The position numbers and the translations under genes were made by a program. Shown piece after piece: positions 4,345 through 56,652 of a DNA stretch of 64,000 nucleotides (positions within the stretch are counted from its first letter, which is position 1; every line of letters starts with the position of its first letter). The notes under the pieces are model-generated. The model did not search any database. It was not told where the DNA came from and saw nothing but the letters and a program-made list of their open reading frames with translations. Source of the DNA: Acidobacteriota bacterium (GTDB taxonomy: Bacteria > Acidobacteriota > Terriglobia > Terriglobales > Acidobacteriaceae); contig JAJYVF010000007.1 of NCBI GenBank assembly GCA_021792135.1, forward strand, positions 62,001 to 126,000. The letters run 5' to 3'.

Positions 4345-4458
4345 GGGGTGAGCGGAGTTCAACGCGGTGCTGTTTTGATGATGCCACAGCCTTAGACGTT
4401 TGCAAAGCTGCGCGGGTAAGCATCGCCTTCGGAAATGCTTTCATTGAAAAGGCTTACA

Positions 4459-5472: not shown

Positions 5473-5537
5473 AGTGGAATGGGTACGGAGGTTTGCGGTG
5501 CCGCACACACCGATGGCGCCCTAATCCGCATCCTACT

Positions 5538-6347: not shown

Positions 6348-6360
6348 ACGGCTCTCGCTG

Positions 6361-8786: not shown

Positions 8787-8806
8787 CCAACCGCCGGCAT
8801 TCTCCG

Positions 8807-8835
8807 ACCCGGCAATCAGCCCTTGCCGGGTTTTG
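8807..8835 (+). terminator. Rho-independent terminator after the ABC exporter unit
   Basis: A perfect nine-base stem (ACCCGGCAA with TTGCCGGGT, loop of seven) is followed by TTTT. It lies 20 bases after the stop of the small membrane protein gene. Confidence 0.85.
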
Positions 8836-8851
8836 CGCATCCCTCTATAGA
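8823..8851 (+). promoter_or_regulatory. Possible sigma-70-type promoter for exbB/exbD
   Basis: TTGCCG (8823-8828) and TATAGA (8846-8851) are separated by exactly 17 bases and lie about 70 bases before the exbB start. The -35 box overlaps the 3' arm of the preceding terminator stem. Only the spacing and consensus match support it. Confidence 0.4.
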
Positions 8852-8920
8852 GAAGGTTACCTGCACCTGCCGGGCAACCCTCCGCTCCATTCCGGGTTCT
8901 GGTAACGTGATACACAGGCA

Positions 8921-15348: not shown

Positions 15349-16125
15349 TTACTGATTCACGCCGCTGGCGAGGAAACCGCCATCGACCACCAGCACCTGA
15401 CCGGTCACGAACGACGCCGCATCGGAAGCCAGAAAGACAGCCGCTCCGATCAGCTCCTCGGTTTTGCCGAAGCGGCCCATGGGCGTGCGCATCAGCAACT
15501 CCTGGCCGCGGGGCGTATTGTCGAGCAGATCGGCGTTGAGCGCGGTGCGGAATACGCCGGGAGCAATGGCATTGACCAGCACGCCCTTCTTCGACCACTC
15601 GACCGCGAGCGAGCGCGTGAGCGATGCGACCGCGGCCTTGCTGGCGGCGTAGGCGGCGACTTCCGTGAGGGCGACGAAGGAGTTGAGCGAAGCGATGTTG
15701 ATGATGCGCCCGTAACCGCGTTCCAGCATGTGCGCTCCGAAGACCTGGCAGGCGCGGAGGGTTCCGGTGAGGTTGGTGTCGATGATGTCGCGCCACTCGT
15801 CTTCAGGAAAGGTGAGGGTGGGGGCCCGCCGGATCTTGCCCGCGCAGTTCACGAGGATCTCGGCTTTGCCGAAGCGCGCCACGGTTTGGGCAAGCAGGCG
15901 GTCGAGCGAGGCGCGGTCCTGCATATCGCAGGTGAGATGAAGAGTCTGGCGGCCGAGGGCCTCGATTTCCGCGGCGGTCTCATCCACCTGCTGCTGGCGG
16001 CGCGAGGAAGCGACGACGTCGGCGCCGGCTTCCGCCAGGCCGATGCTGAGGGCGCGTCCGATGCCGGAGGTGCCTCCGATGACCACCGCGGTTCTGCCCG
16101 TGAGCTGCAATGATGTCAGAGTCAT
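15349..16125 (-). CDS. Short-chain dehydrogenase/reductase in the hexuronate operon (KduD/IdnO-like)
   Basis: 258-aa classical SDR. The nucleotide-binding motif GGTSGIG is at residues 17-23, NCAG near 93, and the catalytic set is Asn118, Ser146, Tyr159 and Lys163. The closest families by feel are 2-deoxy-D-gluconate 3-dehydrogenase (KduD) and gluconate 5-dehydrogenase. Its ATG overlaps the stop of the uxaE gene (ATGA), so it is the last confident gene of the operon. In this context the likely substrate is a hexuronate-derived keto acid such as fructuronate, which it could reduce to mannonate in place of UxuB. The substrate is an inference. Confidence 0.9.
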   Translation of the reverse strand: MTLTSLQLTGRTAVVIGGTSGIGRALSIGLAEAGADVVASSRRQQQVDETAAEIEALGRQTLHLTCDMQDRASLDRLLAQTVARFGKAEILVNCAGKIRRAPTLTFPEDEWRDIIDTNLTGTLRACQVFGAHMLERGYGRIINIASLNSFVALTEVAAYAASKAAVASLTRSLAVEWSKKGVLVNAIAPGVFRTALNADLLDNTPRGQELLMRTPMGRFGKTEELIGAAVFLASDAASFVTGQVLVVDGGFLASGVNQ

Positions 16126-28398: not shown

Positions 28399-29157
28399 AT
28401 GGAGAGCGTCCCCGCCGCCGAAAGCAAAGAGTATGGTTCGCTGCGCCCTTTGGCGGGTGAGGATCATCCAATGGTCATCAGCGCCAGGAAGCTCCGCAAG
28501 GAGTATTCGACAGGTCGTGGCCGCCTGACGCTTTTCGACGACCTGGATTTTGAGGTGGCCCGCGGGGAGATGCTGGCGATCGTTGGCCAGTCGGGGGCCG
28601 GTAAAAGCACGCTTTTGCACATCCTGGGTGCCCTTGATACCCCTTCCGGCGGTGACGTATACTGCGCCTCAATCCAATTGAGAACTTTGAGTCCCAGACA
28701 GGCAGCTGATTATCGCAATCGCGCGATCGGCTATGTCTGGCAATTTCACTATCTGCTGCCGGAATTTACGGCGCAGGAGAACGTGGCGATGCCCCTGCTT
28801 GCCCGGGGGGTGCCAAAGGGTGAGGCCTTCAACAGCGCGGAGCAGTGGCTGAACGAAGTGGGGCTGGGAGACCGCCTGGCGCACCGCGCGGGCGAGCTCT
28901 CCGGCGGGGAGCAGCAGCGGGTTTCGCTGGCGCGCGCCCTGGTGACGCGTCCGCAGGTGCTGCTGGCCGATGAGCCCACCGGGGATCTGGACGGCCGCAC
29001 CGCGGAGCTGGTGTTTGCTCTGATCCAAAGGCTGCATCAGCAGCACGGGCTCACGTCCGTCATTGTTACGCACAATATGGGCCTTGCCCGCCGGTGCGGC
29101 AGGGTTTTGCGGCTGGATAAGGGCCGCCTGGAAGAGGTTTCTCCGCTGGGAGTTTGA
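28399..29157 (+). CDS. lolD: ABC transporter ATP-binding protein, LolD-like
   Basis: 252-aa ATPase of the LolD/MacB group, which powers release of lipoproteins from the inner membrane. Walker A is GQSGAGKSTLLHILG, the signature is LSGGEQQRVSLARAL, and Walker B is VLLADEPTGDLDG. The start is the ATG at 28399 with AGAGGTAG just before it; a later ATG at 28471 (MVISARKL) is also possible and closer to the usual LolD length of 230. No LolC or LolE permease gene is adjacent, which is unusual for this family. Confidence 0.9.
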   Translation: MESVPAAESKEYGSLRPLAGEDHPMVISARKLRKEYSTGRGRLTLFDDLDFEVARGEMLAIVGQSGAGKSTLLHILGALDTPSGGDVYCASIQLRTLSPRQAADYRNRAIGYVWQFHYLLPEFTAQENVAMPLLARGVPKGEAFNSAEQWLNEVGLGDRLAHRAGELSGGEQQRVSLARALVTRPQVLLADEPTGDLDGRTAELVFALIQRLHQQHGLTSVIVTHNMGLARRCGRVLRLDKGRLEEVSPLGV

Positions 29158-29428
29158 GGCGGGACGGTGGCAGGCAGGTTTTGCAGTAATCGGGACAGCG
29201 CCGGGGGGATGGTGGCAAGATCCGGCGCCCGCTCCCGGAAAGTGGGATGGATGCGGACGAACGCACCAGCCTCAGGGGTCGCCCGAAATTGCCCGGGATT
29301 GTTGGCAGGGCGGCAGTTCGAGCCTGAGCAGCATCGCAGGCTCACAGGAGAAGAGGCCTGATCGCCAAAAGCCTTCCGGCACAAAGGACCGGCGTCCTGG
29401 CGGCGGTATCGAGCCTCTCAGAGGGAAC

Positions 29429-31882
29429 ATGTTCGAACGCTACACAGAAAAAGCACGTCGCGTGATCTTCTTCGCGCGCTATGAGGCCAGCCAGTTCGGT
29501 TCGCCGTACATCGAAACGGAACATCTGCTGCTCGGCCTGTTGCGGGAAGACAAGGCACTGACCAATCGCTTTCTCCGCTCCCATGCCTCGGTTGAATCCA
29601 TCCGCAAACAGATCGAAGGACACACCACCATCCGGGAAAAGGTGTCCACTTCGGTCGACCTTCCGCTCTCCAACGAATGCAAGCGGGTGCTGGCCTACGC
29701 CGCTGAGGAGGCCGAGCGGCTCTCGCACAAGCACATTGGAACAGAGCATCTGCTGCTGGGATTGCTGCGCGAGGAGAAGTGCTTCGCGTCGGAGATCCTG
29801 CACGAGCGCGGCCTGAAACTGCTGGCGGTGCGCGAGGAGCTGGCCCGCGCTACCCAGGAGAAGGCTCCGGCGCAGCAGCGCAACCGCGAGTCCAGCCTGC
29901 TGGCGGAGTTTTCGCGGGATCTCACCCAGGCGGCGCTGGATGCGCAGCTGGATCCGCTGGTGGGGCGCGATCAGGAGCTGGAACGGGTGGTCCAGATCCT
30001 GTGCCGCCGGACCAAGAACAATCCGGTGCTGATCGGCGAGCCGGGTGTCGGCAAAACGGCCATTGTCGAAGGCCTCGCCCAGCGCATTTCCGACGGCGAC
30101 GTTCCCAGCTTCCTGGCCGACAAGCGCGTGCTGGCGCTGGACTTATCCCTCATCGTCGCTGGCACCAAGTACCGCGGCCAGTTCGAAGAGCGCCTCAAGA
30201 CCATCATGAAGGAGCTGATGGAAAACCAGAACTCCATCATCTTCATCGACGAGTTGCACACCCTGGTCGGAGCCGGTTCGGCCGAAGGCTCGCTCGATGC
30301 CGCCAACATCCTCAAGCCTGCGCTCTCGCGCGGAGAAATTCAGTGCATCGGCGCCACCACGCCGGGCGAGTATCGCAAATCCATCGAGAAGGACCGCTCC
30401 CTCGAGCGGCGCTTCCAGGCCGTGAAGGTCCCGCCGCCCAACGAAGAAGATGCCATCAGGATCATCATGGGCATCAAGGACCGCTACGAGAAGTTCCACG
30501 CGGTCAGCTACACGGACGACGCGATCAGCTTCGCCGTGGCGCACTCCAACCGTTACATCTCGGACCGCTTCCTGCCGGACAAGGCGATTGACCTCATCGA
30601 CGAGGCGGGGGCTCGGGTGAAGCTGCGCCAGACTTCCCTGCCCGATGACATCACCGAAGTGCAGAAGCGGATCAAGTTCATCGTGCACCGGATGGAGAAC
30701 GCCATCGCGAACCACGAGTTCGAAAAGGCGCGCTTCTATTCGGACGAGGAACGGAAGGAGCGGGATAATCTGCGGGCAATGCGCGACAAGTACCACCTCG
30801 ATGACTCAACGGCCGGAATTGTGACCCGCGAGGACATCGAGGATGTGGTCAGCCGCTGGACGGGCGTGCCCATTACCTCCATCAAGGAAGAAGAGACGCA
30901 AAAGCTGCTCCGTGTCGAAGAGGAGCTGCATAAGCGGGTCATTTCGCAGGACAAGTCGATTTCGGCGCTGGCTCGGGCCATCCGCCGCTCCCGGGCTGGG
31001 CTCAAATCCCCGAACCGGCCGATCGGGTCGTTCCTCTTCCTCGGACCGACCGGTGTGGGCAAAACGGAAATGGCGCGGACCCTGGCGCAGTTCCTGTTCG
31101 GCAGCGAGAAGGCGCTCATCCGCTTCGATATGTCGGAGTTCATGGAGAAGCATTCGGTCTCGAAGCTGATCGGTTCGCCTCCGGGATACGTCGGCTACGA
31201 GGAAGGCGGCCAGCTCACAGAGCGCGTGAAGCGTTCGCCCTACTCCGTGGTCCTGCTGGACGAGATCGAGAAGGCGCACGCCGACGTCTTCAATATCCTG
31301 CTGCAGGTCTTTGAAGACGGGCAGCTGACCGATGGGCTGGGGAACACGGTCGACTTCAAGAACACGATCGTGATCATGACCTCCAACATCGGCGCACGGC
31401 ACCTCCAGCGGCGCCAGGGGCTCGGCTTCCAGAGCGACCGCGAAGACCTGGTGATGGAGAAGATTGAGGACCTGGTTAAGAACGAGGTGAAGCGGACGTT
31501 CAACCCCGAGTTCCTGAACCGTATCGACGAGATCATTCTCTTCCAGTCGCTGACGGATGCCGATCTGATCCAGATTCTGGAGCTGCTGGTGCAGCAACTG
31601 AACACCAACCTGGCGCAGAAGGCGATCACGATTTCCGTGACCGAAGAAGCGAAGAAGTGGATTCTCGAGAAGACGCTGGTGGACCGCAGCTACGGGGCGC
31701 GTCCGCTGCGGCGGGCTCTGCAAAGGTATGTCGAAGATCCCCTCTCGGAGGCGCTGATCGCCGGCGGCATCAGCGAGCGCCCGGCGTTCCTCGAGGTGTA
31801 CCTCGAAAACAACCAGCTCTTCTACCGGCCGGTGGCGAAGGAAGGCGAGGAGAAGACGGAAGGCGTGCTGCTGGTAAGTTAA
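29429..31882 (+). CDS. clpC: ATP-dependent Clp protease ATP-binding subunit ClpC
   Basis: Hsp100 unfoldase that feeds substrates to ClpP. 817 aa. Two Clp_N repeats (about 1-145), AAA-1 with Walker A GEPGVGKT at 203-210, a UVR-like middle segment ([19 protein letters not shown]), and AAA-2 with Walker A GPTGVGKT at 539-546. A ClpP-docking loop is visible as QGLGFQS in the second AAA domain. The start ATG follows GAGGGA. No ctsR, mcsA or mcsB genes accompany it, unlike in Firmicutes. Two possible terminators follow within 170 bases. Confidence 0.97.
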
Positions 31883-38897: not shown

Positions 38898-39707
38898 TCA
38901 TTCCGCCCAGCCCAGCGATCGCAGGAAGGCCCGGTCTGTTTCGCTAAGCTGCGCCCCCGGGAGCAGATCCGGGCGGTTGCGCCATGTCTTTTCGAGCGCA
39001 CGCTCGCGGCGCCAGCGCCGGATCGCTGCATGGTCACCCCGGGTAAGGATCTCGGGGACCTTCAGCCCCCGGAACTCGGCGGGCCGCGTGTAATGGGGAT
39101 AGTCGAGCAGACCGCCGGAGCCATGAGTGGAGCGAGGAGGGACTCCGGGCGCTGCAGGCTCGCCGCCGCCGAGGAGTCCGAAGCTCTCGTATTCGCTGGA
39201 AGCCTCATTACCGAGGACGCCGGGGAGGAGGCGCGCCGTGGCATCCACCACAACGGCCGCCGCAAGTTCACCGCCGGAGAGGACGAAGTCCCCGATGGAC
39301 AATTCCCCGTCGCAGAAGAGCTCGGAAATGCGCTCATCCACGCCCTCGTAGCGGCCGCAGATGAGCACCACCCGCTCCAGCTTCGCCAGCTCACGGGCTA
39401 CGGCCTGAGTGAATCGCGAGCCCTGCGCGGAGAGCAGAATCACGCGCTCCCGGGTAGTGTTCCGGTCCGTCTTCGGTGGCAGGCCAAGCCACTCGACGGC
39501 TTCGGACAGAGGCTCGGGCTTCAGCACCATGCCTTCACCTCCGCCAAAAGGCCGGTCGTCGACGGTGCGATGGCGGTCGTGGGCAAAAGCGCGCAGGTCG
39601 TGGACCGCGACCGCGACCCTGCCGGCAGCGATACCGCGGCGCAGCACACCGTGGTTCAGGATGCTGGCGAAGAACTCGGGGAAGATGGTGATCAGATCGA
39701 AGCGCAT
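38898..39707 (-). CDS. trmD: tRNA (guanine-N1)-methyltransferase TrmD
   Basis: Methylates G37 of several tRNAs with S-adenosylmethionine, which prevents frameshifting. 269 aa. The SAM-binding trefoil knot reads LICGRYEGVDERI and SIGDFVLSGGELAA; the substrate loop contains GGGEGMVLKPEP near residue 55, and YPHYTRPAEF follows. I chose the ATG giving MRFDLITIFPEFF; the open frame upstream has no homologous look. In most bacteria trmD directly follows rimM, but here a convergent histone-like gene separates them, and rplS does not follow. Confidence 0.97.
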   Translation of the reverse strand: MRFDLITIFPEFFASILNHGVLRRGIAAGRVAVAVHDLRAFAHDRHRTVDDRPFGGGEGMVLKPEPLSEAVEWLGLPPKTDRNTTRERVILLSAQGSRFTQAVARELAKLERVVLICGRYEGVDERISELFCDGELSIGDFVLSGGELAAAVVVDATARLLPGVLGNEASSEYESFGLLGGGEPAAPGVPPRSTHGSGGLLDYPHYTRPAEFRGLKVPEILTRGDHAAIRRWRRERALEKTWRNRPDLLPGAQLSETDRAFLRSLGWAE

Positions 39708-39844
39708 GCAGAAACGGAACGTGCTGATGCGCGCCGCACGGGTTGCGAACAGCACAGCAGGCATCGTTGGCATCTTATCCTGACTCGTTGCCGTGCGCAT
39801 TCGGCGCTGTTTGCGCGCATTCGCAACTCATCGCGTCCTGTTGC

Positions 39845-39936: not shown

Positions 39937-40485
39937 ATGCAGGACGACTACAAGCTTTATGCAAGTGCTGACAGCGAATTCGAACCGGAAGCCGACGATG
40001 ATATGGAAGAACTGGAAGAGGGCTTCGGCGAAGATGAGGAAGAAGAGGTCGTGGTGACGGCTTCCATCTCCTCCGACGATGACGAATTAGCAGAGGAGGA
40101 GGGCGAGGGCGCCGGCGAGGAGGCCGAGTCTCAGGTTTCCTCGACTCCTGCGAAACCGGCGAAGAAGCGGGCAGCAAAGAAGGCCGCGAAGAAGGCCCCG
40201 GCAAAGAAAGCTGCGAAAAAAGCCCCCGCAAAGAGAGCCGCGCAGAAGGCCCCGGCAAAGAAGGCGGCTGCAAAGAAGGCCGCGAAGAAGGCCCCGGCGA
40301 AGAAGGCTGCGGCGAAGAAGGCTGCGGCGAAGAAGGCTCCCGCGAAGAAGGTGGCTGCGAAGAAGGTGGCTGCCAGGAAAGGCGCCGCGAAGAAGACGGC
40401 AAAGAAGGCCGCCAATAAGGCCGCGAAGAGCGCCGCCCCCAAAAAGCCGGCGAAGAAAGCCGCTAAGAAGGGTTCGCGCCGCTAA
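39937..40485 (+). CDS. Histone H1-like, lysine/alanine-rich DNA-binding protein
   Basis: 182 aa in two contrasting halves. Residues 1-66 are strongly acidic (MEELEEGFGEDEEEEVVV). Residues 68-182 are repeats of the AKKAPAKKAAAKKA type, as in eukaryotic histone H1 tails, bacterial Hc1/Hc2 and AlgP. The basic half would bind DNA or RNA without sequence preference; the acidic half may mask it or mediate contacts, an arrangement I have rarely seen. It lies between rimM and trmD but on the other strand. The repeat DNA is rich in AAGAAGGC units and may vary in copy number among strains. Confidence 0.88.
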   Translation: MQDDYKLYASADSEFEPEADDDMEELEEGFGEDEEEEVVVTASISSDDDELAEEEGEGAGEEAESQVSSTPAKPAKKRAAKKAAKKAPAKKAAKKAPAKRAAQKAPAKKAAAKKAAKKAPAKKAAAKKAAAKKAPAKKVAAKKVAARKGAAKKTAKKAANKAAKSAAPKKPAKKAAKKGSRR

Positions 40486-40490
40486 GCATC

Positions 40491-40523
40491 GGTAAGGGCT
40501 GCATGAGCCATGCAGCCCTTACC
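40491..40523. terminator. Strong stem-loop between the histone-like gene and rimM
   Basis: GGTAAGGGCTGCATG (40491-40505) pairs perfectly over 15 bases with the complement at 40509-40523 around AGC. It overlaps the rimM stop codon (40519) and probably ends transcription from both sides. Confidence 0.8.
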
Positions 40524-41250
40524 CGTTATCGCTCATCTGCCGCTTCTCTTCTTCCGTAATGGGCGCGTTGATCTCCAGCAGACCCTGGGGGAAGCGCATC
40601 TCGACGCGCCGGCCAGCCAGATCGATCCGCACCAGATACCCTTTCACAAGGGGGATCAGGGCCTCGGCTTCCGGACCGCGAATCCCGCGCCGCCGGACGA
40701 CCAGCAGATCGGTGCTGGACGATCCCCGATCCACATCGACGATCTCGCCAACCTCAAGACCTCCGTGGTCCAGATCGACGACCTGGCAGCCGATGAGATC
40801 GGCGATATAGGCTGAGCCCGCCTCCAGCGGCGCCCGCTCCGAGGCCGGAATGGCTACATGAAAGCTTCGCACCGCCTCGGCATCGTTGATGGAATCGATT
40901 CCCGCGAACTTAAGTACGACGCGGCTGCGGAGAAACCAGAAATTTTCGAGGTGAATCTCCCGCGGCCGCGTGCCCAGCCGCGGGGGAGGAATGAGGAAGA
41001 GTCGGGACCGCTGGTGGAATCGCTCCGGGAAATCGGTCAGGATTTCCGCAATAAGCTCTCCTTTCCGCCCATGAGGGCGGATCAGCTTTGCCAGCAGAGC
41101 CCATCGGGCCGCCGCAGCGCCAGACGCTGCTACAGGCTGCACCGTCCGCCCGGCACCACCGGCGCCCGAACCGACGCTCCGGCCGACCGTCGGGGATCCG
41201 GACGCAGAAGGTACCTGGTCCTGCGAAATGGTTCGCTGGGGCAATGCCAT
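40519..41250 (-). CDS. rimM: Ribosome maturation factor RimM
   Basis: Assists 30S subunit assembly near the head of the particle. 243 aa, longer than the common 170-180 because of an N-terminal extension of about 50 low-complexity residues (GSPTVGRSVGSGAGGAG). The RimM core starts near LLAKLIRPHGRKGELIAEIL and continues through the PRC-barrel (ADLIGCQVVDLDHGGLEVG). Its start is 15 bases downstream of khpA, so the order is rpsP-khpA-rimM on one transcript. Confidence 0.93.
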   Translation of the reverse strand: MALPQRTISQDQVPSASGSPTVGRSVGSGAGGAGRTVQPVAASGAAAARWALLAKLIRPHGRKGELIAEILTDFPERFHQRSRLFLIPPPRLGTRPREIHLENFWFLRSRVVLKFAGIDSINDAEAVRSFHVAIPASERAPLEAGSAYIADLIGCQVVDLDHGGLEVGEIVDVDRGSSSTDLLVVRRRGIRGPEAEALIPLVKGYLVRIDLAGRRVEMRFPQGLLEINAPITEEEKRQMSDNG

Positions 41251-41265
41251 TTCTGCCAGCTGTGT

Positions 41266-41559
41266 CTACTCCTCGCTGCCAGCCGTCTTCTGGTGGTCTT
41301 CCTCGAGGATATCGAGCGTATAACGATGATGGTGCTTCATACTGACAGCTCCCAGGATCGTCCGCACCGATCTGGCCGTGCGCCCCTGCTTTCCGATCAC
41401 CTTCCCTACATCCGTGGGAGCGACCCTGAGCCGGAACACCGTGCTCTCCTCGCGTTCAACCGCCTCAACAACCACCGCCTCGGGAATATCCACGAGTGCC
41501 CGCGCAATCTGGGTTACCAATTCCTGCATGTCATCGGGTTTGTCTGTTGTCTCTTTCAT
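41266..41559 (-). CDS. khpA: KH-domain RNA-binding protein KhpA
   Basis: 97-aa single KH domain protein. The GxxG loop is in DVGKVIGKQGRTARSVRTIL, and the domain begins QELVTQIARALVD. Members bind RNA and help control cell size and translation. The start is the ATG at 41559 (MKETTDKPD). Located between rpsP and rimM as in many bacteria. Confidence 0.93.
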   Translation of the reverse strand: MKETTDKPDDMQELVTQIARALVDIPEAVVVEAVEREESTVFRLRVAPTDVGKVIGKQGRTARSVRTILGAVSMKHHHRYTLDILEEDHQKTAGSEE

Positions 41560-41740
41560 CTTGCCCCCCACTGGAAGACACACGACCCTGAGCTTCCGGG
41601 GCTACGCGGATACTACTGTAATGCGGTCGTGGAAAAAAGAATATTCCGCAGACTGCCTAACCCCAAGTGCGGCAAAAGTAACCTTTGGGAGGTAGCGGGA
41701 GCAGGCGAACGGGCACTCCCTCCGTTACTGCAGGGTAATG

Positions 41741-42037
41741 TCAGGCAGCTTCCGAAGCACCGGGGGCGCCAGCCGAGCCGATTTGCGGCTCGGGGGCCTG
41801 ATTTCCCGTCGAGGGATGGGAGTGGAGCAGCCTGGCGACACGGTCGGAAAGCTGGGCTCCCTTTCCCTTCCAGTACTCGATCCGATCCAGCTTCAGCTCG
41901 ACCGAAGCCGGATTGGTGCGGGGGTTGTAGGTTCCCACCAGCTCCACGGAACGGCCGTTCCGGGCACGGCCCTTCTCGATGACGACCACACGGTAATACG
42001 GTTGTTTGCGCGCGCCCACGCGCGCCAGGCGAATCAT
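41741..42037 (-). CDS. rpsP: 30S ribosomal protein S16
   Basis: Small subunit protein. 98 aa; core MIRLARVGARKQPYYRVVV and YNPRTNPASVELKLDRIEYW are typical, followed by a short Ala/Pro-rich tail. I use the ATG giving MIRLARVG; an ATG two codons earlier is in frame. First gene of the rpsP-khpA-rimM unit. The gap to khpA is 181 bases. Confidence 0.96.
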   Translation of the reverse strand: MIRLARVGARKQPYYRVVVIEKGRARNGRSVELVGTYNPRTNPASVELKLDRIEYWKGKGAQLSDRVARLLHSHPSTGNQAPEPQIGSAGAPGASEAA

Positions 42038-42225
42038 CAGCACAATCGAACAATCCTTTCCATCACGAAAATTTCAGAACTCAAATCCTGGGATCACCGA
42101 TACGGCCCCGCAGGGCACACACTTCCCAGCTTCCTAATATATCAGGGATTTACGCACAAACCTAGGGGCAACGAAGCCAGTACCAGGCGCGGATACAGGC
42201 CGTCGCCCCGCGAGGGGACCGGCGA

Positions 42226-42254
42226 TTGCCCCTGTCTGGAGTCGATGTTAGGAT
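42226..42254 (+). promoter_or_regulatory. Possible promoter for the glycosyltransferase locus
   Basis: TTGCCC (42226-42231) and TAGGAT (42249-42254) are separated by 17 bases and lie 48 bases before the truncated glycosyltransferase frame. Confidence 0.35.
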
Positions 42255-42302
42255 GGAACCACAGTTTCCGGACCGCCGTTTCCCCACCCCCATGGCGAAT
42301 GC

Positions 42303-42422
42303 ATGAACGAGGTTTCTCTCCCCAGCCCGCCGCCATCTCCGGCGACCCCTGCCAGGAGCCTCAAACCGATTCGTCTCGCATACTTTGTGAGCCGCCCTAT
42401 CCAGTACCAATTTAATTCCTAA
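42303..42422 (+). pseudogene. Truncated N-terminus of a GT4-type glycosyltransferase
   Basis: A 39-codon frame with ATG start ends ...PIRLAYFVSRPIQYQ followed by four codons and a stop. The stretch RLAYFVSxPIQYQ is the standard beginning of GT4-like glycosyltransferases, which then run for another 350 residues. The break occurs within AATTTAATTCCT, a 12-base sequence that recurs 1.1 kb downstream. So this is a leftover 5' end of a lost gene. Confidence 0.7.
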
Positions 42423-42431
42423 GTCTGGATT

Positions 42432-43526
42432 TTGAGAGAGATGGCCATCGATTCCATTTTCCTGCTCGGCAAGTTTTCTCCCGGCGAACTGGGCTCATCG
42501 TACCAGCGCGCCTTCAACAAGATTGGTGTCCGAACGCAGGTATACAGCCCACGTGAATCGCGGGACCGCTTACCGTGGGTCATCAAAAACCGTGTGGCCC
42601 ACAGGCTAACCATCCAAAGCCACTGGATCAGGTCCCGCTCGCTCGTCAAGCTAAACAGGTGGATCGAGCGGAGCGTTCTGGAATCCGGTGCGCAGGTCTT
42701 TCTCTCTCTCACCCTTGAATTGATATCCGCCGAAACCCTGCGCAGAATCCGTTCTGCGGGTGTACACGTCGTCTGCTTTTATCCCGACAACCCTTTTCCG
42801 CCCAACTATGGCGCACGTCCGGAAACGCTCCCCGCTGCCCGGGAGGCGGATCTGTGCCTCATCTGGAGCGAACGCCTGGCGGGCAAGCTGAAGAATGCTG
42901 GTGTCCGCAATGCTGCATTTCTTCCTTTTGCATGGGATCCGGACGTTTTCCCTTATCAACATTCGCAGCCACAGGGAACCTGGCCGGGCGTCCTCTTCCT
43001 CGGCGGCTGGGATCGGGAACGGGAGCAGTTTCTGGAAGAAGTTGCCTCTCACGTACCTCTCCGCATCTACGGCCCCCCTTATTGGGGCACGCGAACCAGA
43101 CCCTCCAGCCGGGTTCGGCGCTGCTGGCAGGGGTCCGACCTCCGCCTGGCGGATGCTGCCCGGGTCATACGAGAATCGGCTGTCTGTCTGAATCTGCTGC
43201 GAACCCAGCACATCATAGACGGACAGCCAGACGGGCTGATCATGCGGAACTTCGAGGTGCCCGGAGCGGGGGGATTTCTGCTGTCCACGAGGAGTGGTGG
43301 CGCAACCACGCTGTTTCCGGAGGGGGATACAGGAGAGTATTTTTCCGATACGCGGGAATGCATCGAAAAGGCGAAGGCTTATATCGCAGACGAGCAGGCC
43401 CGGAGGTCACTCATCGAACGAGCCTATGCTGCGACTACTGCGCGCCACCTGTACACCGACCGCGCGTCCTGGATCCTCAAAAGATGCTCGACGATTGTTC
43501 CAGCAGGGATTAGCGTCGCGAACTAA
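42432..43526 (+). CDS. Glycosyltransferase, CgeB/spore-maturation-like family
   Basis: 364-aa cytoplasmic glycosyltransferase of the CgeB type (GT1-like C-terminal domain). The N-terminal domain opens SIFLLGKFSPGELGSSYQRAF; a middle stretch CFYPDNPFPPNYG and the C-terminal RNFEVPGAGGFLLSTRSG with LFPEGDTGEYF fit the family's sugar-nucleotide site. It lies between two decayed glycosyltransferase fragments and is bounded by a 12-base direct repeat. AT content rises at its edges. It probably adds a sugar in the exopolysaccharide made by the genes to the right; donor and acceptor are unknown. Confidence 0.85.
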   Translation: MREMAIDSIFLLGKFSPGELGSSYQRAFNKIGVRTQVYSPRESRDRLPWVIKNRVAHRLTIQSHWIRSRSLVKLNRWIERSVLESGAQVFLSLTLELISAETLRRIRSAGVHVVCFYPDNPFPPNYGARPETLPAAREADLCLIWSERLAGKLKNAGVRNAAFLPFAWDPDVFPYQHSQPQGTWPGVLFLGGWDREREQFLEEVASHVPLRIYGPPYWGTRTRPSSRVRRCWQGSDLRLADAARVIRESAVCLNLLRTQHIIDGQPDGLIMRNFEVPGAGGFLLSTRSGGATTLFPEGDTGEYFSDTRECIEKAKAYIADEQARRSLIERAYAATTARHLYTDRASWILKRCSTIVPAGISVAN

Positions 43527-43531
43527 TTTAA

Positions 43532-43762
43532 TTCCTCCTGCGCACGCCGGGTCATCAGTCGCTCTTCGACGAAGACCGGAGGGCCGTCTTCTTTTCCTCC
43601 CTCGGTGAGTGTGCGGGCAAGTGCCGTTTCTACCTCGGCCGGCCCGGCCTGCGCGACGTTATCGCTCGACGAGGCCGCGAGCGCGCAGTCCAGTCAGGGT
43701 ACGACAACGACACCCAATTCAGTCGGATTCTGAATCGCCTTGATGATTACAATGAGGATTAG
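43532..43762 (+). pseudogene. C-terminal remnant of a CgeB-like glycosyltransferase
   Basis: A frame without a start reads FLLRTPGHQSLFDEDRR, then ECAGKCRFYLGRPGLRDVIA, then GYDNDTQFSRILNRL to a stop. It aligns by eye with the end of the intact upstream enzyme (FLLSTRSG..., LFPEG, RECIEKAKAYIADEQARRSL). It begins exactly at the second copy of the 12-base direct repeat. So the locus once held a paralogue whose first two thirds are gone. Confidence 0.65.
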
Positions 43763-44011
43763 CTTTTCTGATCAGGATCGGTTGCCGATGAAACCGAAGC
43801 CATGCCGTTCGGCGAACGCGCCAATCGGATTCTCGACTGACTGAACCGTGTCTGCCCCGGCCTGACGACTCCAACTTCGATATGACGCGGACTCAGGGCA
43901 AGGTCGTCGCACGAAACTCTCTGGGTGAAGGCCGATTTAAGCACCATAATCGCACGAACATACAACGTGAGGATTGTCTGTGGCTGGACCAACACAATCC
44001 GGAGGAGCCAT
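43763..44011 (+). other. Decayed intergenic DNA before the GT2 gene
   Basis: No supported gene. Short open stretches such as SGSVADETEAMPFGERANRI read like protein but have no start and stop early. The last 20 bases contain GGAGGAG, the ribosome site of the GT2 gene. Confidence 0.4.
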
Positions 44012-45043
44012 ATGTCCCTTTCGATCGTAATGCCAACATATAACGGGATGAGGTACCTGAAGCAGGCGGTTGACTCCGTGCTGTCGCAGAGTTACCAGGG
44101 CTGGGAGCTGATCATCAGCGATGACGGATCGAAGGATGGGACTCGCGACTATTTACTGAGCCTTGAGGACCCACGCGTCAAAGTTCATTTCCAGACTGAA
44201 AACCTGGGTATCTTCGGCAATCTGAATTTTCTCTTGTCTCAGGCCCGTTACGAGATCACTCAAATCCTCTGCCAGGACGATTACCTTGTGGACAGCGGAG
44301 CGCTGGACCGGCTGCTAAGTGAATGGAGCCGGCTGCCGGACGCGGTAACGTTTCTGCGTTCGAATCATCGCCTGGACGTGCGGTCGAGGCTCGAACGATA
44401 TCAGGCTGCCGTCCTGCCCCCCGTCATCGCGCCTGAGCATTCCGATCTTCTGTTCTTCGTATTTGGGTGCATACCAGGAAATCTGTCGAATGTTTCCGTC
44501 CGCACGAGCGCGGTTGAGGGTGCCGGCTGGTTCCGGACAGACCTGCCCTATGCTGGGGATTTCGAATTCTGGAGCCGACTCGGCAGGTCATCTCCCTGGG
44601 CCCTCTCCAGATTTTCAGTGACCTGTGTGCGGCAGCATATCGCTCAGGCTTCCGTTACGCTGAATCTAAAGGGCGAAAAAATCTCACAACTCGGGACGGT
44701 TCTCGACATACTCTACAGGCGCCTCGTAGCTGAAGGTCATTCCCCACTCGCTCTGCGTTTCATGGCCGCTGTCGCATATATATCGCAGGAAAAACACAGG
44801 GGCGTGAAGGACCAGCTCAGCGGGAGGGGTCGTCAGTACCTGGCCTGCGTTGCCAAGGGTCTCGATCCATCCAGCTTTTCCTTCGGCAGCACCCTGGACT
44901 GGGGTATTTATTTTGCATCCCTCGGAGGACATCTCTTTACGGTTTCGGCAGCCAGACAGCTTCTCAAAGCACATAACAGAATTCTCTCCGCCGGGAAGGA
45001 GTCCAGCGCCTGTATTGCGCCTATGTGGGGGGGCTCGGAGTGA
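44012..45043 (+). CDS. Glycosyltransferase family 2
   Basis: 343-aa GT-A fold enzyme. The N-terminus SLSIVMPTYNGMRYLKQAV and VLSQSYQGWELIISDDGSK carry the nucleotide-binding Asp pair; a later QDDYLVD supplies the DXD-like metal site and DFEFWSRLG the likely catalytic base. The start at 44012 has GGAGGAG six bases before it; the frame is open upstream, but only in the decayed region. It is convergent with the GT4 gene, 13 bases from its stop. Likely builds the repeat unit of the exopolysaccharide. Confidence 0.9.
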   Translation: MSLSIVMPTYNGMRYLKQAVDSVLSQSYQGWELIISDDGSKDGTRDYLLSLEDPRVKVHFQTENLGIFGNLNFLLSQARYEITQILCQDDYLVDSGALDRLLSEWSRLPDAVTFLRSNHRLDVRSRLERYQAAVLPPVIAPEHSDLLFFVFGCIPGNLSNVSVRTSAVEGAGWFRTDLPYAGDFEFWSRLGRSSPWALSRFSVTCVRQHIAQASVTLNLKGEKISQLGTVLDILYRRLVAEGHSPLALRFMAAVAYISQEKHRGVKDQLSGRGRQYLACVAKGLDPSSFSFGSTLDWGIYFASLGGHLFTVSAARQLLKAHNRILSAGKESSACIAPMWGGSE

Positions 45044-45056
45044 TTCTGGTCCGGAA

Positions 45057-46310
45057 TCATGATGCAGGCGCACTCCCGACCAGGGATTGAGCGAACGCGG
45101 ACCAGCTTTCCCCATACTGATACCATCCACCGATGTGGCGGACGCGCTCCTGGGCTGCCTCACTCATCCTCTCCCGGAGGGGAGCATCGTCAGCAAGCTG
45201 CTGCAGTCTGGCGCCAATTGCCTGCGGAGATCGAATCGGGGTGAGAAAGCCCTCCACGCCATCGGCAAACAGATCCTCGCCACCCGTGTGATCGCTGCTG
45301 ATGAGAGGGCAGCCGCACGCCATCGCCTGGCCCTGAACGAGAGCCAGGCCTTCCTCAATTGAGGGAAGCACCATCACGTGACTGCTGCTGAACAGCGCGG
45401 GAAGCTGACCCTGCGGCACGTGCCCCATAAACTCGACGCCTTCCTGCGGTAGACCTGAGAGAATCTGGCGAAATTCCGGCGCCACACTGCCCACAATTCT
45501 GAGTCGCTTCCGCGGGTGCTTCAACTGGCGATAGCCTTCCAGCAGGTAGGGCACTCCTTTGCGCAGATTCACGCTCCCCACAAAGAGCACTTCGAACCGA
45601 TCCGGCATTGGTTCGCCGGTGCGACGAAAGCGTTCGAGTCGCACGCCGTATGGGATTTTGTAAACCTTCTCCGCTGGCACACCCATTTCCACAAACGAGC
45701 GCCGCGCAAACTCGGAAGGAACGACAATCGCATCGGCCTCCTCGTACTCTGTTTCTTCTCGCGCGATGATCCGCGGATCACAGATGACTCGCTCGATTCC
45801 CCAGCGCTTGTACTCCTCTCCGACGATTCGATCCTGATAGCGAATATGGGAGGACCCGCGATCGCAAATGTATTTTGCTCCCCTTTCCTGAGCGCGCCTG
45901 CCGCTCAGCACGCCAGATCCCGAGAGTGCGACATAAACATCGCAGGAGGGCATGGTGTTTGCCACCCAGTGATCAAAGGTCCGAAACATCACCGACGTGA
46001 TATCCCTGTTCAGACCGGCAGGGATACCCCACATTCGCCCGACAAGCAACTGCGGAGTATGAACCCATGGAAACGTGCGCACTTTTTCCAGCGCAATTCC
46101 CTCCCGTCGCAGCCGTTTCCAGGGAAAAGTGGAGTAAATGCATTTCAGGGAGCCGCGACCCTCCAGCTCGCGGGCCAGATCGAAGTGGTGAAAGACACCG
46201 GCGACCGCCTGGACCACTTCAAGGCTAACGTCTCCCCGCGAATCCTGTGCGGTGTTCTCCAAATTGTGCCTTCTGTGTCGAGATGGATTCAGCGGGGGGA
46301 GCTGGTTCAT
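45057..46310 (-). CDS. Glycosyltransferase family 4
   Basis: 417-aa GT-B enzyme. The N-terminal half has VVQAVAGVFHHFDLARELEGRG. The C-terminal donor site has VLFVGSVNLRKGVPYLLEGY and the catalytic EX7E motif in PSIEEGLALVQGQAMACG. About 25 residues before the homologous part are unusual and a later start is possible. It is the last gene of the minus-strand exopolysaccharide run, 12 bases after the polymerase gene. Confidence 0.92.
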   Translation of the reverse strand: MNQLPPLNPSRHRRHNLENTAQDSRGDVSLEVVQAVAGVFHHFDLARELEGRGSLKCIYSTFPWKRLRREGIALEKVRTFPWVHTPQLLVGRMWGIPAGLNRDITSVMFRTFDHWVANTMPSCDVYVALSGSGVLSGRRAQERGAKYICDRGSSHIRYQDRIVGEEYKRWGIERVICDPRIIAREETEYEEADAIVVPSEFARRSFVEMGVPAEKVYKIPYGVRLERFRRTGEPMPDRFEVLFVGSVNLRKGVPYLLEGYRQLKHPRKRLRIVGSVAPEFRQILSGLPQEGVEFMGHVPQGQLPALFSSSHVMVLPSIEEGLALVQGQAMACGCPLISSDHTGGEDLFADGVEGFLTPIRSPQAIGARLQQLADDAPLRERMSEAAQERVRHIGGWYQYGESWSAFAQSLVGSAPAS

Positions 46311-46322
46311 ACCCGACAGCTT

Positions 46323-47861
46323 TCAGCTAACCGGATCCGCAAGTTCCCCTGCCGGTAACTGAGAAATGAGGTTGCGTTGTCGACGATTACGGGACCGGTC
46401 GCCCCTGACCGGAATGTATCTCACGATCCCCCCCAACACCCAGGAGACCAAGATCAGCTGGAGGGGTGTTTTCGTCATGAGGACGATATTACTCCCCATG
46501 GTCATTGCTCCAAACTCAAACGCCAACGTTACTGCTGCCACAGTTCCCCAGGGCCGGCTGATATCGAACATGCTTTCGAAAACAACAAGAACGAAGGGCA
46601 TACCGACCATCGGAAACAGGATGGCGCTCAGCCATCCGAACGCTCCGTAGGCGTCCGCCACGGAGGTGATTGTGGAGAATGTGGTACCTTCTATGTCCGC
46701 GTGCTCCAGGCCGTCGATTTGTCCAAGATACGCGTCGGAGCCGAAATCCGGTTTGTCTTTGAAAAGAAAATGCGGAACCTGGCTGAGCACATCCATCTTC
46801 ACCGACTTGAAGCCGTAGTGAAATCCCGTGGAACACGCGTTGATCAGCGCGCTGTCAGGAGCGATCAGGGCAAACCTGTTGAGGGTCTCCGTACCGGGGC
46901 GGCTAAAGTAGCTCCCTGCCCTTTCATTTTGCACAGTGGTCGCCGAAATCGCAGTTCTGATCGCGCTCCATTGGCCGGGGGCTGCGAGGAGATGACCGAA
47001 CATCTTCGACGCCTCCTCTCGGAAACTGCCTGACCCCCGAAACTGGCGCACGTAGAGGTAGTAAGGCGAGATGAAGACGAAGAACACGAAGATCGTAGCG
47101 GCGATAGCGGCATAATGCCGACGCCGCAGCCTGTATCCGCGGATATAGCAGGTGACTAATATGATCAGAGCGGGTGTGGCGAACCCGCCTCGCCCTGCAG
47201 TCACGAAGCCCATGAATGCCATTCCAAGCACCGGCCAGAGCGCCATCCATCCAAAGCTATGACGCCCCTCTGTACTCCGGATGCGATGATCGAGTGCGAT
47301 GACCAGCGAGAACGGCAGCAGATTCCTAAGAAGAACCGCTAAGCCGTGTGCAGAGGATTGGGCGGCGTCCGGACCGGCAAGGTTCAGAGATGTGAATAGA
47401 ATGGTTGCCGGCAACCCGAGGCCGAGCGAGATGACATACAGCACTTTGGACTGACCGGATGTGACTGGCTCGACAGGCCGCGGAAGACGCAGCCGTATCC
47501 ACCCGAAGAGGAACACGCCCACCATCAGCGACAGGTAGAAAACGGTGTACACCGTGATGGTCAGGTTGGGAACCAGGAGGCCCTGGTCCGCGCGTTCGAA
47601 CAGGAAGAGCTTCGCGAACTGACCAATGATGAGGCCGTTCAGGGCGAAGACGCTGAAGGCGATGCCGCTGATGGTGCTGAGTCCGCCCAGCAGGTTGTAG
47701 ATGATCCCCGCCGCGGCCAGGGCGGTGGCCACCATGGCCACGAAATACAGATTCGTCCCGGTTGCCAACTCACCGGCGGCCACCAGGAGAGCGATGGCGA
47801 ATAAAAGAATCAGCGGAATTTTGTGCGCCCGGGCCATGTCTATGGATTGAATCGTATCCAT
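46323..47861 (-). CDS. Wzy-like oligosaccharide repeat-unit polymerase
   Basis: 512-aa membrane protein with about 12 helices and a long periplasmic loop (YVRQFRGSGSFREEASKMF to FKDKPDFGSDAYL), the layout of O-antigen and exopolysaccharide polymerases. Sequence is poorly conserved in this family, so the call rests on topology and position between export and glycosyltransferase genes. Its gene is 21 bases from the Wza-like gene. A Wzx flippase would be needed and is not in the window. Confidence 0.82.
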   Translation of the reverse strand: MDTIQSIDMARAHKIPLILLFAIALLVAAGELATGTNLYFVAMVATALAAAGIIYNLLGGLSTISGIAFSVFALNGLIIGQFAKLFLFERADQGLLVPNLTITVYTVFYLSLMVGVFLFGWIRLRLPRPVEPVTSGQSKVLYVISLGLGLPATILFTSLNLAGPDAAQSSAHGLAVLLRNLLPFSLVIALDHRIRSTEGRHSFGWMALWPVLGMAFMGFVTAGRGGFATPALIILVTCYIRGYRLRRRHYAAIAATIFVFFVFISPYYLYVRQFRGSGSFREEASKMFGHLLAAPGQWSAIRTAISATTVQNERAGSYFSRPGTETLNRFALIAPDSALINACSTGFHYGFKSVKMDVLSQVPHFLFKDKPDFGSDAYLGQIDGLEHADIEGTTFSTITSVADAYGAFGWLSAILFPMVGMPFVLVVFESMFDISRPWGTVAAVTLAFEFGAMTMGSNIVLMTKTPLQLILVSWVLGGIVRYIPVRGDRSRNRRQRNLISQLPAGELADPVS

Positions 47862-47882: not shown

Positions 47883-48929
47883 TCAGGGGTGCAGGATATA
47901 GCCGAGGCTGGTCGCGGCATAGACGGCCTGCTGTGGTCCGCCGCCGGAAATGACCGATTTGAAGCCGTTTCGGGGGATATAGAGAATGTCGTCGGAGGCC
48001 AGCGCGACGTCTTTCTCCTTGCCATCGAGCACCTTCTTCAGATCGAGCATGATCTCCACTCGCTGATGATCGGGGGTCGTGCGAATGATCATGCTCTTTG
48101 AGAGCGCCGCGGCATAGAGCAGGCCGCCGGAGACGGAGATCGCGCGCACTACGGTGACCGGCGTGTTGCTCGACAGCGGAATCGCCTGCGGCGTCTTCAC
48201 CTCGCCAACAACGTAAACATTGCCCACCTTCGGAATGACGACAGTATCGCCGGGAAGCAGCGGTATGTTGCTCGCAGCGCTCGTGCTCGGGTCGTTGCCC
48301 AGCTCGACCGTAATGGGCTTGGGGTCACCGACGCGACGGATGGTAATGGCATGGCTGGCCAGTGGTGTAAATCCGCCGCAGGCCGAGATGACGTCCATGA
48401 GGCGAAGGTCGCTGTAGGCCGGGATGGGCGCCGGCTTCTCGACTTCTCCAAGGACTGTAATCACCTGAGTCGGGGACTGGACCAGTTCCACGCTCACCTG
48501 CGGGTTGACCAGGATTTCCTTTTCCTTCAGCTGCTTCTCGAGATAGAGGGAAACCTGGGAGGGGGTCATGCCGGCCAGCCGGACTGTTCCCAGGTAAGGC
48601 AGCACGATCTCGCCCTGGGCGCCGAGCTTAACACCCCCGATTGCCGTTGTGGTCAGTTCCGGGGCGCCGTAAGTGGCGATCGAAATCATGTCTCCGGGCT
48701 GGAATTTTACGTTGGCGTACTGCGCCTTCATGGCTGACGCGGGCGCACCCGCAGCAGGGGTTTGCGATGTGACCGCGGGGCCAGCATACTGCGCTGCTGC
48801 GACGGCACAACCCAGCGTGAGGCTCAGGCACGCCGCGATGAGGTGACGAACTGATTTCCCGGCCACAGGCTTCCTGTCAGCGACTCCGGGGCCGCTTCGC
48901 CGGCAAGCGGAACTATTTGCCATATTCAT
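47883..48929 (-). CDS. Polysaccharide export outer-membrane protein, Wza-like
   Basis: 348 aa. An N-terminal signal sequence (HLIAACLSLTLGCAVAAA) is followed by the Poly_export domain (FQPGDMISIATYGAPELTT, VLPYLGTVRLAGMTPSQV) and two SLBB-like domains (ITVLGEVEKPAPIPAYSD, VYVVGEVKTPQAIPLSS). It forms the outer-membrane channel for the polymer. It overlaps the autokinase gene by 17 bases, so both are translated together. A lipobox-like LTLGC is present, and a lipid anchor is possible. Confidence 0.93.
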   Translation of the reverse strand: MNMANSSACRRSGPGVADRKPVAGKSVRHLIAACLSLTLGCAVAAAQYAGPAVTSQTPAAGAPASAMKAQYANVKFQPGDMISIATYGAPELTTTAIGGVKLGAQGEIVLPYLGTVRLAGMTPSQVSLYLEKQLKEKEILVNPQVSVELVQSPTQVITVLGEVEKPAPIPAYSDLRLMDVISACGGFTPLASHAITIRRVGDPKPITVELGNDPSTSAASNIPLLPGDTVVIPKVGNVYVVGEVKTPQAIPLSSNTPVTVVRAISVSGGLLYAAALSKSMIIRTTPDHQRVEIMLDLKKVLDGKEKDVALASDDILYIPRNGFKSVISGGGPQQAVYAATSLGYILHP

Positions 48930-51099
48930 AGGTGTAATAGCCCAGATAGCCGTAGTATTCGGGCAGCGACGAATCCACTCCGTTGAAGACGAACCCGTAG
49001 ATCTTCACATCGAGGTCGCGAAGGATCTCCGCCGCGCGTCCCAGCATGCGGCGCGTGCAGTATCCCTGGCGGATGACCAGCACCATACCGTCGGCCTGCG
49101 CCGCGACGATGGCCGGATCGGTGACGGACAAGACCGGCGGGGTATCGAAGATCACGTAGTCGTACTTTTCGCGCAGCTCCCGCACAACCTCGATCATCTG
49201 GTCCGAGGCCAGCAGGTCGGCCGGCAGAGGAGGAACCGTGCCGGATGGAATCACGTCCAGCGTGGTAAGAATCTCGTGCGTCTGCGTTACTTCGCTCAGC
49301 GTGTGATAGCCGGTTAGGACTTCGGAAAGGCCCCGGCCGCCCTCCATGCGGAGGCGTTTGTAGACTGATGGCCGCCGCATATCGGTGTCCACCAGCGCAA
49401 CCCTCTTTCCGCCCTGGGCGAGAACGGCCGCCATATTCACGGATACGGTGGATTTGCCTTCCGCCGGCTGGCAGCTTGTTACGGCGATGACTTTTGACTC
49501 GCGCGAGGTGCTCGACAACCGCATTGAGGTTCGCAGCGCGCGGAATGACTCCGAAAATGGCGAACGCGGATCCCGCAGCAGCTCCGGTCCGCCCACCCAC
49601 TCCACATCGCTCTGCCTGGTCTTCCAGCTGCTTTGTGGAATCATCGCCAGAGATGGCAAACCCAGGATCTCCTGGACATCGTGGACATCGCGCAGGCGGG
49701 TATCCATTTTCTCGAGCAGCAGCGCGAGCGCCATGCCGCCAAAGGCACCAAACAGGAGTCCGATCTCCGCCATCTCCGTCAGAGGCATGCTGGAAGGTTT
49801 TGTCGGGACCGATGCGAGATCGACGATATTGATGTCGGCTGCGTCCAGCCCCGCATCCACGGCAGCCTCGCGGAGCCGGCCAACGATGCTCTCGTACATG
49901 CGCCGATTCGAGTCGTATTCCTGGCTCAGCAGCATGTACTGCACGAGATCGTCGCGCTGCCCATAGATATCCCGGAGCTGGTTATCGAGATTATCCTTCG
50001 CCTGATTCTCGGCGGTTTCAGCGAGATCAAAGGAATCCTTTGCTTGTGCCAGAACGCGCTGCTGCTGGTCCTCGATCTGGCGGCTGAGGCTGCGGCTCTG
50101 TGCCTGCAGCTGCTCGACCTGCGGATACTTTGGGCCATAGACGGGCGCCAGGCGGGCCAGTTCCGCCTCGACCCCGGCCCGCTGCGCGCGCAGATTGCCA
50201 AGGAGACCACCCGGACCGTCGGAACCCAGTGGCGATGCGCTGTTCTCCATAATCTGGTCGGGCGGCAGAGAACTCAGGATCCGATAGCGGGCTTCGGTAA
50301 CCACGCGCTGCTCGGTAGCGTCGGACAGGCCCTTTTCAAGATTTGCCATCTGCTGTACGACCAGGCTGTGGTCGGGATCGAGGGCCATGACTCCCAGCTT
50401 TCGCTGGAGGTCCACCATTTTGTCCTGCGAGTTCTGCACAACCGAGCGCAGGTCGTCCATCTGCCCGGTGAGCCACTTGCTCACCTGCTGCGTGGTGCTG
50501 TAGTGGGAGATGAAGTTGTTCTCGATGAACTGATTCTCCAGAGCATTGACGATGCTCGCCGACAGCTGGGGAGAGGGACTCTGGTACGAGATGGTCACCA
50601 TCTGGGTGCGGGGAACACGGGAAACGACGAGGCCGCCGCGCAGGATCCTTACGACGGCGGCCTGAACCGCGGGGTCATCCAGACTGGCGTGGAGCAGGGG
50701 GGAATTTCCGGACCCGCCGAAGGGCCAGTGGCCGCGGCCCAGAAAATCCGGGTTGTCCTGAAGTTTAAGACTGCGAGCCACTGCTGTCAGAAGCTTATGG
50801 CTATTCAGAATGCGGATATCGCTCTCAATGACCACATCAAGCGAACTGTCTGTACCCAGAACAGACGACAGTGACTCCTTGAGGTCGGAGGCCGAACCCG
50901 GCTGGATCTGAAGCTCTCCAGTGGCCATGTACCGCTTGCCGTGATGGATTCCGAGAGCAAAGGCGAGCACTGCGGAGCCCAGAGCCGCAGCCAGCAGAAG
51001 AAGACGCCTCTTGCGGATGACAATCCACAGATCGGCAAGCGAAAGATCCTTCGCCTCCGGACCGGGGGTCACGACTTTGCCGCGAATCGAGTGTTGCAC
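48913..51099 (-). CDS. Polysaccharide copolymerase fused to tyrosine autokinase (Wzc-like)
   Basis: 728 aa. Wzz domain with two membrane helices flanks a long periplasmic coiled coil (about 60-420). The BY-kinase domain has Walker A SCQPAEGKSTVSVNMA near 540-555, Walker A' VALVDTDMRRPS near 568, and Walker B VIFDTPPVL. The C-terminal tail holds a tyrosine cluster (EYYGYLGYYTYEYGK) for autophosphorylation, which controls polymer length and export. GTG start; the first gene of the unit, behind a good promoter. Confidence 0.95.
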   Translation of the reverse strand: MQHSIRGKVVTPGPEAKDLSLADLWIVIRKRRLLLLAAALGSAVLAFALGIHHGKRYMATGELQIQPGSASDLKESLSSVLGTDSSLDVVIESDIRILNSHKLLTAVARSLKLQDNPDFLGRGHWPFGGSGNSPLLHASLDDPAVQAAVVRILRGGLVVSRVPRTQMVTISYQSPSPQLSASIVNALENQFIENNFISHYSTTQQVSKWLTGQMDDLRSVVQNSQDKMVDLQRKLGVMALDPDHSLVVQQMANLEKGLSDATEQRVVTEARYRILSSLPPDQIMENSASPLGSDGPGGLLGNLRAQRAGVEAELARLAPVYGPKYPQVEQLQAQSRSLSRQIEDQQQRVLAQAKDSFDLAETAENQAKDNLDNQLRDIYGQRDDLVQYMLLSQEYDSNRRMYESIVGRLREAAVDAGLDAADINIVDLASVPTKPSSMPLTEMAEIGLLFGAFGGMALALLLEKMDTRLRDVHDVQEILGLPSLAMIPQSSWKTRQSDVEWVGGPELLRDPRSPFSESFRALRTSMRLSSTSRESKVIAVTSCQPAEGKSTVSVNMAAVLAQGGKRVALVDTDMRRPSVYKRLRMEGGRGLSEVLTGYHTLSEVTQTHEILTTLDVIPSGTVPPLPADLLASDQMIEVVRELREKYDYVIFDTPPVLSVTDPAIVAAQADGMVLVIRQGYCTRRMLGRAAEILRDLDVKIYGFVFNGVDSSLPEYYGYLGYYTYEYGK

Positions 51100-56575: not shown

Positions 56576-56652
56576 TGGTGGGCAGTGCAGGGCTCGAACC
56601 TGCGACCTCCTGCTTGTAAGGCAGGCGCTCTGACCAGCTGAGCTAACCGCCC
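56576..56652 (-). tRNA. tRNA-Val (anticodon TAC)
   Basis: 77 bases including an encoded CCA. Acceptor stem GGGCGGT/ACTGCCC (one G-U pair), D arm AGCTCAGCTGGTCAGAGC, anticodon arm CCTGC-CTTACAA-GCAGG with TAC at positions 34-36, and T arm GCAGGTTCGAGCCCTGC. All four stems pair. TAC reads GTA and other valine codons. Confidence 0.97.

Follow-up and report, generated by a model that had tools for sequence, protein, structure and literature searches.

The window analyzed here is a 64,000-nucleotide stretch of Acidobacteriaceae DNA, and its positions 42303-43762 most probably mark the site of a past gene replacement in a hypervariable locus for surface polysaccharides. In the event that we propose, an ancestor with the gene order rpsP - epimerase - GT4 - CgeB-A - Wzy - Wza - Wzc would have received a segment carrying a different CgeB-like gene (“gene B”) in place of GT4 from codon 37 onward and of CgeB-A up to roughly its last 74 codons, and the outer ends of GT4 and CgeB-A would have stayed behind as scars. 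We infer a single import by recombination with an illegitimate joint (non-homologous or of short homology) rather than several steps. Gene B would now use the old GT4 start region, its ATG lying 18 nt after the stop of a 39-codon remnant, and its product may add or change a sugar of the exported polysaccharide. Replacements of this sort are nothing unusual in polysaccharide loci and are a known way in which bacteria vary surface sugars.

Read on the plus strand, the stretch begins with the first 36 codons of the ancestral GT4 gene of the genus (42303-42408), the 36th codon straddling the start of a 12-bp direct repeat, AATTTAATTCCT. The left copy of this repeat (42409-42420) supplies the in-frame stop of the GT4 remnant (TAA, 42420-42422). 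Next come gene B, an intact CgeB-like glycosyltransferase gene of 361 aa (42441-43526), whose stop codon overlaps the right copy of the repeat (43525-43536), and what remains of the ancestral CgeB-A gene at its 3′ end, about 74 codons and a stop (43537-43762). The conserved flank on one side is rpsP (Ribosomal_S16, PF00886; 41741-42043, minus strand). On the other side lie a GT2 glycosyltransferase gene of the same locus (44012-45043, plus strand; the start is our own reading, and the gene was scanned as 43925-45043) and, all on the minus strand, a GT4-type glycosyltransferase gene that is another variable gene of the locus (45057-46310), a Wzy-like membrane protein gene (46323-47861), a Wza-like polysaccharide export gene (Poly_export, SLBB; 47883-48929), and a gene for a Wzc-like chain-length determinant and tyrosine autokinase (48913-51099), which forms the opposite conserved flank of the variable slot. 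The Poly_export and SLBB, GT2, and GT4 genes all exceed their Pfam cut-offs, and the Wzc-like protein scores above the cut-off of the tyrosine autokinase family TIGR01007 and below that of TIGR01005. The Wzy-like protein, without a match in Pfam or NCBIfam, is named from its length and its position, which is conserved in the genus. A relative of the GT2 gene (56%) adjoins the same export genes in another locus (L126). With an export protein, a chain-length kinase, and glycosyltransferases together, the locus appears, from its sequence, to be a polysaccharide locus of the Wzx/Wzy type; no flippase family was found among the window ORFs scanned.

The intervals on either side of the fragments (42044-42302 and 43763-43924), when searched for remnants of the epimerase or of other genes, gave only short weak matches. 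At 40000-47000 we found no Rfam family, 1 promoter-like site (1.7 in shuffles), and 6 terminator-like sites (4.0 in shuffles, sd 2.2). About 30 bp just upstream of rpsP (42126-42155) are conserved; in same-genus loci with rpsP, the bases before it agree over 23-30 bp at at least 91% in 8 of 10 and over 13-17 bp in genomes G010 and G007. Read on the minus strand, this segment may be the rpsP promoter or leader. A tRNA gene was considered as an integration site and rejected, the sole tRNA in the window being 13 kb off (56576-56652).

The ancestral order is read from the genus, represented by 12 genomes including that of the window (G000). Its locus runs rpsP - epimerase (PF01370) - GT4 - CgeB-A - Wzy-like - Wza-like - Wzc-like - GGDEF/EAL gene. 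In G001, GT4 (4178-5527) overlaps CgeB-A (5506-6564) by 22 bp; in G003 and G011, GT4 precedes CgeB-A in the same order but with genes between them (two ORFs in G003, an FkbM-like gene in G011). Given this gene order and the identities of the fragments, what remains in the window is the two outer ends of one GT4 - CgeB-A pair, and one replacement can therefore account for both. The epimerase gene that stands beside rpsP in the relatives is gone from the locus, which means that more than one rearrangement has taken place here; its best match in the window's own genome (76%, G000:C6:29208-30140, in L116) has part of a DDE transposase gene some 3.4 kb away.

The upstream fragment is an ORF of 39 codons (42303-42422) that reads MNEVSLPSPPPSPATPARSLKPIRLAYFVSRPIQYQ-FNS-stop and has a GT4-like beginning. 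Searched as 37 aa, it is too short for a profile match and gave none in Pfam up to E 1; its assignment to the GT4 of the genus follows from gene order and sequence alignment. When the surrounding open segment is included, the match to the G011 GT4 has E 1.7e-5. Aligned to each of four GT4 N-termini, the fragment's first 35 residues score above every one of 2000 shuffles of the same composition; the N-terminus with which the fragment aligns is present in G001, G003, G011, and G005. G009 has a 40-residue GT4 match at a contig edge. Searching the window's own genome with the GT4 query returned 9 family members, the best of them 37% identical over partial length.

The downstream fragment is an open frame of 76 codons (43532-43759) that matches PF13524 over profile positions 81-143 of 144 (E 7.8e-9; 36.1 bits, cut-off 25). 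It is 69-74% identical to the 3′ end of intact CgeB-A in 5 of the 11 other same-genus genomes (G001, G003, G007, G010, G011), where the open frames of that gene encode 348-399 aa; weaker matches (39-55%) occur in 5 other genomes among the 61 searched, and in its own genome the fragment finds itself alone. Over 69 codons, a length that together with near-saturated synonymous sites leaves the ratio with low resolution, its pN/pS is 0.19-0.25 against the five intact genes, as compared to 0.03-0.26 for the ten pairs of intact genes. Since these values fall within the range of the intact pairs, constraint appears to have acted on the fragment during most of its evolution, with the cut a recent one. 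The truncation also looks recent in that the fragment is open and without decay.

These results bear on the original prediction, in which a GT4-like N-terminal piece, an intact CgeB-like gene, and a CgeB-like C-terminal piece had been proposed. All three are confirmed, the first by alignment to the genus GT4 and the others by PF13524, and the two fragments do belong to different glycosyltransferase types. The expectation that both would resemble glycosyltransferases in profile searches holds for the C-terminal piece; the N-terminal piece has no such match and is placed by alignment and gene order. Described there as decayed, the fragments are instead truncated, with open frames and, for the C-terminal piece, the pN/pS given above. 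The further claim that at least two genes were lost or swapped stands insofar as two genes are lost without a close copy elsewhere in the genome, whereas separate losses are not required. The intact ancestors that were to be sought in relatives were found in the genus, adjoining each other in G001.

Gene B matches PF13524 (Glyco_trans_1_2) over nearly the whole profile (positions 1-143 of 144; E 8.8e-24; 84.5 bits, cut-off 25) and is merely 21-26% identical to CgeB-A; by sequence, it is of a different lineage from the gene that left the C-terminal fragment. When 61 related genomes and 399 sampled genomes of the class were searched, its closest relative was a truncated N-terminal half of 141 aa in G005 (53%), in the same kind of locus; the second closest among the 61 is a 3′ tail in G010 (40%). 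CgeB-like matches occur in 100 of the 399 sampled class genomes, the window's own included, and among the matches listed from that sample, the window aside, identity to gene B is at most 35%. Searched with gene B, the named genomes gave no relative. The same kind of scan with an alignment of the Wzc-like protein returned 11 loci, i.e., 6 genus contigs already compared, 4 further Acidobacteriaceae, and 1 weak match in Comamonas; the four further loci, of which two (L122, L128) are short, gave no gene-B match by blastx. Ten of these 11 loci come from metagenome-assembled genomes named Acidobacterium sp. or Acidobacteriaceae bacterium, with isolate names containing “palsa” in five cases and “bog” in one. 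With regard to the GT-B fold, an AlphaFold2 model of gene B built from 5 sequences has low confidence (mean pLDDT 53.6), and no PDB sequence matches at E up to 1.

The arrangement is carried by one assembly only, and no genome was found with an intact gene B in the slot without scars, nor was a donor found. That the arrangement is an assembly chimera, absent from any cell, strikes us as extremely improbable. The related loci do come from metagenome assemblies, and the window's own genome, in 77 contigs, could be one too. However, the locus lies inside a 172-kb contig, and the usual assemblers should not be misled by a repeat of only 12 bp. In base composition (GC 0.59, third-position GC 0.66), gene B falls inside or close to the values of the five genes that follow (0.56-0.62 and 0.64-0.74), and no intact close relative of it was found in the 61 relatives or the 399 class genomes.

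The joints of the proposed replacement lie at the two copies of the 12-bp repeat. DNA homology to GT4 extends through CCAGTACCA and takes in the first base of the left 12-mer before it ends, and homology to CgeB-A restarts immediately 3′ of the right 12-mer, or, under an alternative alignment in which six bases are missing in the window, inside the right repeat. The perfect direct repeat at both breakpoints was missed by the original prediction. When 52-bp pieces of the same loci were paired at random, 15 of 40,000 pairs had a repeat of at least 12 bp in common, in a test done post hoc, after the repeat had been seen. With up to 2 mismatches, the 12-mer occurs 59 times in the window's own genome, as compared to 17 times for its reversed control. 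Direct repeats flanking the insert would not be expected from plain homologous recombination. In homology-facilitated illegitimate recombination, which accompanies natural transformation, foreign DNA enters beside homologous flanks and the joint has little or no homology; the event in the window would work by analogy with this process, although it does not predict that the inserted segment is bounded by a direct repeat on either side.

Such a repeat might instead mean that gene B moved as a discrete unit, carried either by a transposase, with the 12 bp as its target duplication, or by a site-specific recombinase that has AATTTAATTCCT as its site. The repeat bounds practically one gene and its ribosome-binding region. 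The 12-mer occurs in three exact copies in its own 5.1-Mb genome and in none of the 11 other same-genus genomes (it is present in 6 of 61 genomes, its own included). The third exact copy (G000:C75:22982-22993; position 10982 of L115) sits in a second polysaccharide cluster, between GT4-type and TylF-type genes. However, that copy lies in a hairpin for which 9 of 200 shuffles fold as well (plus strand); we take the hairpin to be unrelated, and the third copy may be due to chance. A hairpin or attC-like structure, such as an integron gene cassette would have, was sought at the two window copies, which fold no better than shuffles (z -0.26 and 0.24). Nor do the ends of the insert carry inverted repeats (none of at least 12 bp; the best matches at 7 of 15 bases), and no transposase or integrase was found among the window ORFs scanned, namely 51 of the 53 listed ORFs of at least 90 aa with Pfam and one further ORF with NCBIfam, leaving out 38898-39800, which we take to be trmD from the order of its neighbours. 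Weak TniB and IstB matches fall inside a Clp-type AAA protein (29063-31882). The target, moreover, was not simply split, as about 2 kb are missing when judged by the gene lengths in G001. On sequence grounds the insert has the marks of neither an insertion sequence nor a transposon, with no terminal inverted repeats and no transposase among the window ORFs scanned. We regard movement of gene B as a discrete unit as very unlikely. More unlikely still is the broader idea that AATTTAATTCCT is a recombination site at which, by a system other than the known integrons and transposons, single glycosyltransferase genes enter the polysaccharide loci of this lineage as cassettes.

Replacement by recombination, the explanation that we favor, fits a slot that varies across the genomes compared. 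The interval could be read on one contig in nine genomes, i.e., the window, G001, G002, G003, G006, G007, G008, G010, and G011; in G011, where rpsP was not called as an ORF, the gene was located by means of rimM and the conserved bases that precede rpsP. G004, whose contig ends too early, and G009 are left out. By ORF calls and blast, no two of the nine contiguous intervals are alike in gene content, and G008 is without any locus gene between rpsP and the GGDEF gene. In G005, rpsP and the epimerase are on one contig and the glycosyltransferase part is on another, which starts in a second epimerase-like gene, so that continuity of this interval is not proven; with G005 counted as a tenth, partial genes are present in 5 of 10 intervals (window, G005, G006, G007, G010). 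These observations bear out the earlier suggestion that the locus is a hotspot for surface polymer variation.

The partial genes differ in kind. In G005 (L083), a GT4 3′ end with an FkbM 5′ end is duplicated (2526-2714 and 4071-4262; 86% over 192 bp), and between the copies lie FkbM and the N-terminal half of a B-like gene (51% over 141 aa); the second copy reads on into another ORF, membrane-like by eye. In G006, the Wzc-like gene is reduced to its first 310 codons. In G007 (L080, coordinates of the reversed locus), the CgeB-A 3′ end is duplicated around a methyltransferase gene (7759-7951 and 8783-8973), the second copy, behind that gene, being degenerate (74% over 197 bp). G010 (L081) carries a GT4 3′ tail of 29 aa (14427-14513) shortly before an intact CgeB-A and a B-like 3′ tail directly after it (15657-15806). 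As this last tail matches gene B (44% over 45 aa, E 1.5e-10) and not the A-type genes (E 0.05 or worse), the window and G010 are, at the level of sequence, mirror images: each has one complete occupant and, behind it, a 3′ end of the opposite type, namely B and an A tail in the window, A and a B-like tail in G010.

The same comparison bears on the number of events. In a stepwise history, which overlaps our preferred explanation and differs from it in the number of events, a deletion would have fused the GT4 start to the CgeB-A end before gene B was inserted, or gene B would have come first and its flanks been deleted later. In other genomes this slot does show duplications and deletions as events of their own (G007, G005, G006), and insertion into a pre-existing 12-bp sequence would account for the direct repeat. 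Nonetheless, this history needs two events where one is enough, and a fused fragment pair without an insert is absent from the nine contiguous intervals. We hold it to be possible though rather doubtful; the evidence itself does not discriminate between one event and two.

In the capsule (cps) loci of Streptococcus pneumoniae and relatives, variation falls mainly on the glycosyltransferase genes. As described in PMC5111408, cps loci have conserved flanks and recombine frequently, and small fragments and pseudogenes of earlier genes remain; the window locus likewise sits between conserved flanks and holds leftovers of earlier genes. That account places transposase genes in cps loci, whereas none was found in this Acidobacteriaceae window. 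The window also differs in that its breakpoints bear a 12-bp direct repeat and its scars come from the two ends of a single ancestral pair of genes. In the polysaccharide clusters of Sphingomonadaceae, pathway genes have been gained, rearranged, and scattered over time in cluster-to-scatter cycles, according to PMC5399355. The epimerase gene outside the cluster resembles that pattern; unlike those cycles, replacement here would have occurred within a fixed slot, with the joints still visible.

Our literature search found no paper on this locus or on a double-end scar of this kind in Acidobacteriota. The stretch offers a base-pair-level view of glycosyltransferase exchange in a lineage for which we found little on surface-sugar genetics. 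It suggests that, in the slot next to rpsP, incoming genes leave behind the outer ends of previous occupants, and the mirror-image scars in the window and G010 would make this slot a usable record of past alleles.
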